42,650 nt of DNA from Gemmatimonadota bacterium (GTDB lineage: Bacteria > Gemmatimonadota > Gemmatimonadetes > Longimicrobiales > Gaopeijiaceae), in contig VXMI01000121.1 of NCBI GenBank assembly GCA_009841165.1, positions 1 through 42,650 of the forward strand, in the 5' to 3' direction. The notes under the pieces are model-generated. The model did not search any database. It saw only the letters and a program-made list of their open reading frames with translations, and was not told the origin of the DNA. Below, one piece after another: positions 11,605 to 13,574 of the stretch. Position numbers and translations under genes: made by a program. Each line of letters starts with the position of its first letter. Position 1 is the stretch's first letter.

Positions 11605-13050
11605 ATGTCCGACTCCATCAGCTACGCCGCCGTTGTCAAGGACGAGTGCGAGACCTGCCACCTGGCGGCGCCCGTCCTCACCGAGATCCACCGGGCCGGC
11701 TATCCGCTCGCCGTGTACTGGCAGGACGATGGCGCGTTCCTGGACCCCGTCCTCGCCGCCGCCGCCGTCGACGACCGCGCGCTCGAGCACTCCTTCCACC
11801 TGGATGTGGAGACCGTCCCCACCCTGATCCGCCGCGAGAACGGTCTGGAAACCGGCCGCACGGCCGGCTGGAGCCGCGACGACTGGCGCGCGCTCACCGG
11901 CATCTCCGCGCTGGGGGCGGGACTGCCGCCCTACCGGCCCGGATGCGGCTCCCGCTCCGTCGAGCCGGGTATCGCGGAGACCTTGCAGGCGCGTTTCGGC
12001 GAAACCGGAATCCGCGCCCGCACCGTCGAGGTCGAGTCCGGCGCCGACGCGGTCGAGGCCTGCTACGACCGCGGCTGGACCGACGGCCTGCCCGTGGTAC
12101 CACCGACCCCCGAGCGCATCCTGCGCATGCTGGGCGGCACGCGCCGCGACCCGCGCGAGGTTATCGGCGAGATCCCTCCCGAACTCGCGCCCTGCACCGT
12201 CGAAAAGGTCGCCATCAACGCCGTCATGGCGGGTTGCCGGCCCGAGTACATGCCGGTCGTGCTGACGGCGCTCGAAGCCGCGCTGGACCCGGGATTCACC
12301 CTGCACGGCGTCACCTGCAGTACCTGCTTTTCGAGCCCGGTGATCATCGTCAACGGCCCCGTCGCAAAGCGCATCGGCATGAACTCCGGACTCAACGCGC
12401 TCGGACAGGGGAACCGGGCCAACGCCACCATCGGCCGCGCGGTCAATCTCGTTGTGCGCAATGTGGGGGGCGGGCGGCCCGGCGAAATCGACCGCGCGAC
12501 GTTGGGTTCTCCGGGCAAGTACACGTTCTGTTTTGCGGAGGATGAGCGCGACGAGGGCTGGGAACCGCTGGCCGTCTCACGCGGAATCGCACCCGGGCGG
12601 AGCGCTGTGACGGTGTTCGCCGGCGACGGAATCCAGGGCCTGACCGACCAGAAGGCGCGCACGCCACGCGAACTCTCCCGCTCCCTGGCGATGGGGCTGC
12701 GGGCGGTGGGGCACCCCAAGCTGTGTGAGTGGGCGCCTGCCGTTCTGGTCCTGTCGCCCGAGCACTATGCGATCTACCGCGAGGCGGGCTGGGACCGCTC
12801 CCGGATCACCGGCGCCCTCCACGACGCGCTGCTGCTCCCGGGCGAGAAGGTGGCTGCGGGCGTCGACGGCGTAGCCGAAGGAATGCCCCCCTCCCGCACG
12901 GGCCAGCTGATCCCCAAGTTCCACCCCGGTGCCCTGCTGCTGGTGCGCGCGGGCGGACCGGCCGGGCTGTTTTCGGCCATCCTCTCGGGCTGGCCGGGAG
13001 GGCGCCTGTTCGAGGAATCGCATCCTGTCACCAGAGAGATCGCCGAATGA
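11605..13050 (+). CDS. Thioredoxin-fold fusion protein, partner of the UGSC selenoprotein
   Basis: A 481-residue cytoplasmic protein without signal peptide. Residues 1 to about 115 look like a thioredoxin fold: a CETC redox motif (Cys15, Cys18) after a beta strand, and a VPT segment like the cis-proline loop of thioredoxins (VETVPTLIRR). From about residue 145 to the end is a large conserved domain I cannot assign to a biochemical function. It has CYDRGWTDGLPVVPPT, PCTVEKVAINAVMAGCRPEY, HGVTCSTC, IIVNGPVAKRIGMNSG, GNRANATIGRAVNLVVRNVGG and GSPGKYTFCFAE. Several cysteines (ProCysThr, GlyCysArg, CysSerThrCys) suggest redox or metal chemistry. The stop overlaps the ATG of the UGSC gene as ATGA, implying coupled translation. 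From memory, proteins with this domain occur next to UGSC genes elsewhere; that needs a search. A TTG at 11566 would add 13 residues. Confidence 0.7.
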   Translation: MSDSISYAAVVKDECETCHLAAPVLTEIHRAGYPLAVYWQDDGAFLDPVLAAAAVDDRALEHSFHLDVETVPTLIRRENGLETGRTAGWSRDDWRALTGISALGAGLPPYRPGCGSRSVEPGIAETLQARFGETGIRARTVEVESGADAVEACYDRGWTDGLPVVPPTPERILRMLGGTRRDPREVIGEIPPELAPCTVEKVAINAVMAGCRPEYMPVVLTALEAALDPGFTLHGVTCSTCFSSPVIIVNGPVAKRIGMNSGLNALGQGNRANATIGRAVNLVVRNVGGGRPGEIDRATLGSPGKYTFCFAEDERDEGWEPLAVSRGIAPGRSAVTVFAGDGIQGLTDQKARTPRELSRSLAMGLRAVGHPKLCEWAPAVLVLSPEHYAIYREAGWDRSRITGALHDALLLPGEKVAAGVDGVAEGMPPSRTGQLIPKFHPGALLLVRAGGPAGLFSAILSGWPGGRLFEESHPVTREIAE

Positions 13051-13574
13051 ACGACTCCACCCTCACCCTGCACGACCCCACCTCCGAGACCGCGCCCGCC
13101 AACCGCCCGCGCTGTGCACCGCCTGCGTCGCTGGACGGCAGGACGGTGGCGCTCTTCGACATCGGCAAGTCGCGCGCCGACGAATTCCTAGACCATCTCG
13201 AAGCGCGGCTCCGCGCCCGGGGAGTCGCCACCGCCCGCTTCGCGAAGCCGACCAATGCCAGGCCCGCCACCACCGCGATCCTGGACGACATCGCCGCGGG
13301 CGCCGACGTCGTCGTGGAGGCGCTCGCCGACTGAGGGTCGTGCGTATCGTGCGGTCTGCACGACATCAGGGCTCTCGACGACCGCGGCCTTCCCGGCCTC
13401 CTGGTCGCCACCAACGCGTTTCGTGACGCGGCCTCCTTCCAGATCCCTTCGCTCGGCTTCGAACCGGAGATCGTGTGGGTGCCGCACCCGGTCCAGAACC
13501 GCCGCCCTCACGAACTCGAGCAGCTGGCGGAGGACGCGCTCGCCGCGGTACTGCGCGGCCTGACCTCTAACTAA
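13047..13574 (+). CDS. UGSC-family selenoprotein (in-frame TGA decoded as selenocysteine)
   Basis: A 175-codon frame containing TGA at 13332-13334 as codon 96, ending at TAA 13572. Around the TGA the protein reads EALAD-U-GSCVSCGLHDIRALDDRG, the signature of the family known as UGSC (seleno)proteins (Sec-Gly-Ser-Cys). The part before the TGA (VALFDIGKSRADEFLDHLEARL... ADVVVEAL) and the part after it (GLPGLLVATNAF... QIPSLGF... WVPHP... ELEQLAEDAL) fit one continuous alpha/beta domain. A SECIS-like hairpin follows the TGA. A conventional annotation would stop at 13334 and lose the active-site half. The ATG overlaps the upstream thioredoxin-fusion stop. The gene converges on a lipoprotein gene only 3 bases away. 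The function is unknown; U96 with Cys99 would form a selenenylsulfide-type redox centre. The selA, selB, selC and selD genes must lie elsewhere. Confidence 0.88.
13335..13364 (+). promoter_or_regulatory. SECIS element immediately after the selenocysteine TGA
   Basis: The bases after TGA 13332-13334 can fold as TCGTGC (13347-13352), loop GGTCT (13353-13357), GCACGA (13358-13363). That is a perfect six-pair stem with a five-base apical loop starting with GG. The loop starts 18 bases after the TGA. Both the GGUCU loop and the 18-base distance are the same as in E. coli fdhF, whose SECIS binds SelB. A second copy of TCGTGC (13338-13343) gives a competing, longer-loop stem. The bulged U seen in fdhF is not obvious here. 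Confidence 0.8.

Follow-up and report, generated by a model that had tools for sequence, protein, structure and literature searches.

The UGSC gene and its genomic setting

The window analysed here, a 42,650-nucleotide stretch of contig VXMI01000121.1 from a Gemmatimonadota bacterium (assembly GCA_009841165.1), carries on its forward strand a gene of the UGSC selenoprotein family at 13047–13574, assigned from its translation, Pfam family PF24696 and the NCBIfam profile NF041046. The reading frame is open apart from a TGA at 13332–13334 and, with this codon read through, encodes 175 amino acids up to a TAA stop at 13572–13574, with selenocysteine (Sec) as residue 96 in the motif ADUGSCVSCGLHD. 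The TGA (forward strand) was assigned as a Sec codon on the ground that, among 395 genomes of the window's phylum, 49 contain PF24696, at 51 places, each of which holds one in-frame TGA. The protein scored 119.8 bits against PF24696 (cut-off 25), and against NF041046 it reached 112.8 bits, below the cut-off of 125, with profile positions 1–146 of 147 covered. UGSC-containing selenoproteins were in print by 2008 at the latest, with 255 Sec and 21 Cys sequences given in PMC2398784, and PMC2398784 and PMC13188914 describe them as one of the larger selenoprotein families in marine metagenomes. The UGSC motif and the occurrence of both Sec and Cys forms, as given there, agree with what is seen here, and apart from the NCBIfam score below cut-off no difference from the known UGSC selenoproteins was found. 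The 2026 review places UGSC among the prokaryotic families whose functions are largely uncharacterised (PMC13188914); the phrase "UGSC family" gave no match in the literature searched.

The predicted structure of the UGSC protein (pLDDT 80.3) alternates strands with helices. Designed P-loop proteins and kinases for APS or thymidylate predominated among the PDB matches listed; their query-normalised TM-scores did not exceed 0.51, and Z reached no more than 9.9. We read these as a common alpha/beta arrangement only and claim no structural relative. A sequence search of solved structures with the same protein gave a best E of 0.3.

Directly upstream, and overlapping the UGSC gene by ATGA, lies a forward-strand gene at 11605–13050 encoding 481 amino acids. 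Its product comprises an N-terminal CxxC (CETC) domain, which appears to be thioredoxin-like, and a C-terminal domain for which neither Pfam nor NCBIfam provides a name. The C-terminal part shares 36% identity over 324 residues with a protein encoded on an Arthrobacter plasmid, where the gene order is trxB, trxA, the partner homologue and UGSC. The upstream product is likely to be a redox partner of the UGSC protein, and in the window it seems to carry its own fused thioredoxin-like domain. Its predicted model is poor (pLDDT 49.0), and searching the sequences of solved structures with it gave no match up to E 1. The UGSC protein of the Arthrobacter plasmid, which is of the Cys type (L111, 1513–2328), carries a weak C-terminal NifU-like domain (27.2 bits, cut-off 27).

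The source genome, a 4.27-Mb draft, encodes tRNA-Sec (78.1 bits, gathering score 47), selB (298.8 bits) and selD (L199, 380.5 bits), while selA was recovered as two partial matches of 330 and 204 bits, both at contig ends. With all four components found, selA as two contig-end pieces, the organism is predicted to be capable of making selenocysteine. The selD gene has an in-frame TGA of its own and probably encodes a selenoprotein itself.

A hairpin 18 nucleotides past the TGA

A stem-loop follows the TGA on the same strand, consisting of a 5' arm UCGUGC (13347–13352), an apical loop GGUCU (13353–13357) and a 3' arm GCACGA (13358–13363); the arms were delimited from the sequence, RNAfold and pair counts in relatives, and form six Watson-Crick pairs. 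The loop begins 18 nt (13335–13352) past the TGA, as had been proposed in a preliminary description of this DNA, which took the hairpin for a bacterial SECIS element. When 13332–13375 was folded with RNAfold, the hairpin was present in both the minimum free energy (MFE) and the centroid structure; the segment reached −18.6 kcal/mol (z −2.23, with 6 of 200 shuffles equally good) and the hairpin alone −7.8 kcal/mol.

Hairpins of a generic SECIS-like kind, as defined by the published consensus limits, follow 102 of the 755 TGAs on both strands of the window, so a match to the consensus is by itself weak evidence. This frequency would suit a reading in which conservation of a C-x-L-H-D protein motif alone explains the codon pattern, leaving the hairpin as a side effect and the TGA as a stop codon or a sequencing error. 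A strict rule demanding NGU at exactly 18 nt and five pairs, which was fixed post hoc with the element already seen, selected one of the 755 TGAs, the one at 13332. Synonymous resampling of the window peptide produced five pairs together with NGU in 1.3% of 20,000 draws.

Conservation of the hairpin among UGSC genes

In the class of an alphaproteobacterial relative, PF24696 was found in 38 of 385 genomes at 101 places (a tally of result rows), of which 96 have one in-frame TGA and five have none. From 170 motif rows, 153 distinct 160-nt sequences were obtained, comprising 134 Sec-type UGSC genes, 11 genes of a TPAV type and 8 of the Cys type. The set of 134 excludes a weak extra match in L161 and fourteen loci with an HMM match but lacking the UGSC/CGSC motif; twelve of the fourteen carry UGAC or UGTC, four of them with the same hairpin and an NGT loop codon, four of the TPAV type and four others. 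No HMM match was obtained in L183. For covariation analysis, 113 distinct 48-nt sequences were divided into alignments A1 (76 sequences, Alphaproteobacteria) and A2 (35 sequences, the window's phylum), two plasmid sequences being excluded.

Of the 134 Sec-type relatives, 130 have the inner five pairs intact and 107 have all six, the outermost pair failing in 23. The codon at the start of the loop (13353–13355 in the window, +7 counted from Sec) is NGT in 134 of 134, as AGT in 74, GGT in 40 and TGT in 20, and the base directly under the stem (13346, forward strand), with which codon +4 ends, is a purine in 128 of 134 relatives versus 52.2 expected. A contiguous stem reaching −7.5 kcal/mol was recovered by a simple scan in 84 of 134. 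In the eight Cys-type genes compared, codon +7 is never NGT (TGC, ACA, AGC, TCC, ACC and ACG occur instead) and the five inner pairs form in three. At L083, a locus outside the 134, the Cys and His of the motif are gone (GSLLD) yet all six pairs are intact, the equivalent of 13350/13360 being G-U.

The preliminary description had also drawn attention to a duplicated TCGTGC (13338 and 13347) that allows two alternative folds. With either the first or the second copy paired to GCACGA, each fold can form in the window, at −8.1 and −6.8 kcal/mol, and a switch between them might be imagined to regulate read-through. The alternative fold, however, lacks conservation in the phylum: at columns 9/30 its pair is missing from 15 of the 35 relatives and none of its pairs changes on both sides, whereas two pairs of the main stem do. 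We consequently rejected it as a conserved feature and consider a regulatory switch very unlikely. A larger functional unit was considered as well, in that the MFE fold of 13332–13375 adds a ten-pair lower stem below the hairpin in the window. Across relatives, 72.9% of the cells of this lower stem are paired, 237 of 500 shuffles score as high, and the RNAalifold consensus of the phylum alignment retains the five apical pairs only. With a covariation score no better than shuffles, the lower stem was rejected as a conserved feature, and a SECIS extending into it is improbable.

Covariation and synonymous-site constraint

The apical stem, by comparison, passed the covariation test that the preliminary description had called for: in both A1 and A2 its score exceeded 500 of 500 shuffles, a procedure that leaves relatedness among the sequences in place, as well as all slides. 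Pairs changing on both sides numbered two in A2 and one in A1. The pair 13349/13361 (columns 18/30) is G-C in 20, A-U in 14 and G-U in one of the 35 A2 sequences, the change being in most rows between the synonymous codons TCG and TCA for Ser and CAC and CAT for His; across the 134 Sec-type genes, wherever the equivalent of 13349 is A, that of 13361 is U (22/22). Of the 76 A1 sequences, 62 have C-G and 14 have G-C as the closing pair 13352/13358 (columns 21/27), and among all 134 this pair is C-G in 114 and G-C in 20 with no exceptions. It tracks the residue at +6: codon +8 ends in G wherever Cys (TGC) stands there (114/114) and in C wherever Trp (TGG) does (20/20). On a tree built from the protein without the motif (parsimony), A/G at 13349 changes seven times, the closing pair twice and the loop codon seven times, the last always staying NGT.

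Synonymous-site bias, expressed as bits per codon away from the codon use in the flanks, amounted to 1.73, 1.73, 3.37 and 1.07 bits at codons +4, +5, +7 and +8, compared with 0.06–0.42 bits at codons −19 to −1 and 0.54 and 0.78 bits at +11 and +12. Elsewhere in the same genes, AGT makes up 4.5% of Ser codons, GGT 9.7% of Gly codons and TGT 21% of Cys codons. Where Val occupies codon +4 it is encoded by GTA in 22 of 22 relatives, GTA accounting for 4.5% of Val codons in these genes; this use of GTA at codon +4 (13344–13346 in the window) is part of a general preference for a purine just under the SECIS stem.

These comparisons bear directly on whether protein conservation could account for the codon pattern. 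Synonymous resampling predicts that 2.4 of 134 genes would combine five pairs with NGU, against the 130 seen. The loop codon remains NGT although the residues Ser, Gly and Cys alternate there, and it is lost throughout the Cys type; the pair changes fall largely at third bases; and homology continues past the TGA at the PF24696 places of the 49 phylum genomes. In favour of protein conservation, the Cys-type homologues, which need no SECIS, keep the His in five of eight and the Asp in eight of eight. A purely protein-based origin, with the hairpin as by-product, is nevertheless already contradicted by these data, and we regard it as scarcely tenable. Comparison among relatives instead places the hairpin, its distance from the TGA, the NGU loop and the pairing under selection at the RNA level. 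The earlier proposal that RNA constraint, not protein function, fixes the sequence is thus borne out as to RNA constraint on the codons but went too far in dismissing protein function: retention of His-Asp in most Cys-type proteins argues that protein constraint contributes. As judged from the alignments, what RNA fixes is chiefly the NGU codon of the loop and those third bases that pair, and His-Asp is also a protein feature.

A model built from Alphaproteobacteria alone ranked the element first among all parts of the window (40.2 bits, E 7.5e-9), the next hit scoring 13.4 bits. Part of this score reflects coding similarity, since Cys-type genes also reach as much as 38.3 bits with the same model.

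Comparison with known SECIS elements

In E. coli K-12 fdhF (L193), the TGA is followed after 18 nt by GGTCTGCAC, in agreement with the earlier claim of an identical nonamer at equal distance, and the two proteins are unrelated, as had also been stated (BLASTP E 40). The claim of a shared apical loop holds for the letters, GGUCU beginning 18 nt past the UGA in both, and for the distance, but not for the fold, in which fdhF is one base out of register: in fdhF an A-U pair closes a 4-nt loop, GGUC, and one U is bulged, whereas in the window element C-G closes a 5-nt loop on a perfect stem. The exact nonamer occurs in 23 of the 134 Sec-type relatives, as one of 18 different nonamers at this place. 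E. coli fdnG and fdoG have AGTCT 18 nt past the UGA, with the same NGU as UGSC genes carrying AGTCT or AGTTT, while the sequence and register of their stems are unlike those of the window. From the nonamer being one of 18, and from AGTCT in fdnG and fdoG, it follows that the identity with fdhF reflects convergence on NGU plus coincidence; judging by these sequences, what UGSC and fdhF have in common is NGU at 18 nt, and not the nonamer.

A check against bacterial SECIS models, likewise suggested beforehand, gave a divided outcome. The SECIS families of Rfam, including RF01988 (SECIS_2), yielded no match in the whole window or in 13250–13500 at the gathering score or at E ≤10, with RF01988 finding fdhF at 87.1 bits as a positive control. 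The published bacterial SECIS (bSECIS) consensus, as set out in PMC13188914, specifies an upper stem of 4–16 bp, 16–37 nt from UGA to loop and an MFE of −7.5 kcal/mol or lower; the window element lies within all of these limits (6 bp, 18 nt, −7.8 kcal/mol), its 5-nt loop GGUCU is of permitted length with G in the first two loop positions, and compensatory changes occur in homologues. The UGSC element is narrower than this consensus, with a loop of 5 nt, a spacing of 18 nt and NGU in every Sec-type relative. A SECIS covariance model for epsilonproteobacteria (PMC4607533) similarly features an apical hairpin of 5/6 bp, an invariant loop G and covariation, but for other genes and in a phylum other than the window's.

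Proposed function and possible restriction of the encoded residue

The preliminary reading of the hairpin as a bacterial SECIS is strongly supported by pairing, the NGU loop, covariation, synonymous bias and resampling. The near-constant pairing, the invariant NGT, the two pairs changing on both sides and the loss of the loop in the Cys type argue for a genuine element, and we consider it almost certain, on comparative grounds, that the hairpin serves this UGSC-family selenoprotein gene as its bacterial SECIS, with read-through and SelB binding as the implied activities. The NGU apical loop would be the binding site of SelB carrying Sec-tRNA; the UGA, which lies 18 nt upstream of that loop, would be decoded as selenocysteine at residue 96 and not as a stop, and the full-length UGSC protein would be made.

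Residue +7 after Sec is Ser, Gly or Cys in all 134 Sec-type proteins, while Thr is found in four of the eight Cys-type ones. It is conceivable, and proposed here tentatively, that the UGSC SECIS dictates this residue and that NGU at 18 nt together with a purine under the stem represents a shared SelB code; the restriction to Ser, Gly and Cys would then arise because the codon must be NGU. If true, the SelB code would be common to unrelated genes, those of the UGSC family on one side and the three E. coli formate dehydrogenases on the other. The element is a known kind of signal in a known selenoprotein family, and knowledge of selenocysteine insertion is unchanged by it. With it, a large, biochemically unstudied family in Gemmatimonadota and Alphaproteobacteria gains a clean SECIS backed by covariation, and the element provides a clear case of an RNA signal inside a coding region that restricts codons and probably one amino acid. 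The UGSC alignment could also seed an RNA-family model that is absent from Rfam.

Other UGSC genes

UGSC genes with an in-frame TGA were also observed on plasmids of Acidovorax sp. T1, Paracoccus versutus and P. ferrooxidans (L110, L113, L192), where the annotation either calls them short hypothetical proteins or omits them. The TPAV-type genes constitute a second UGSC subfamily (UGSCTPAVLR; L160, L165, L167, L169–L174, L176 and L187) with a different hairpin, whose loop lies one base closer to the UGA and starts with CGU in 11 of 11 sequences.
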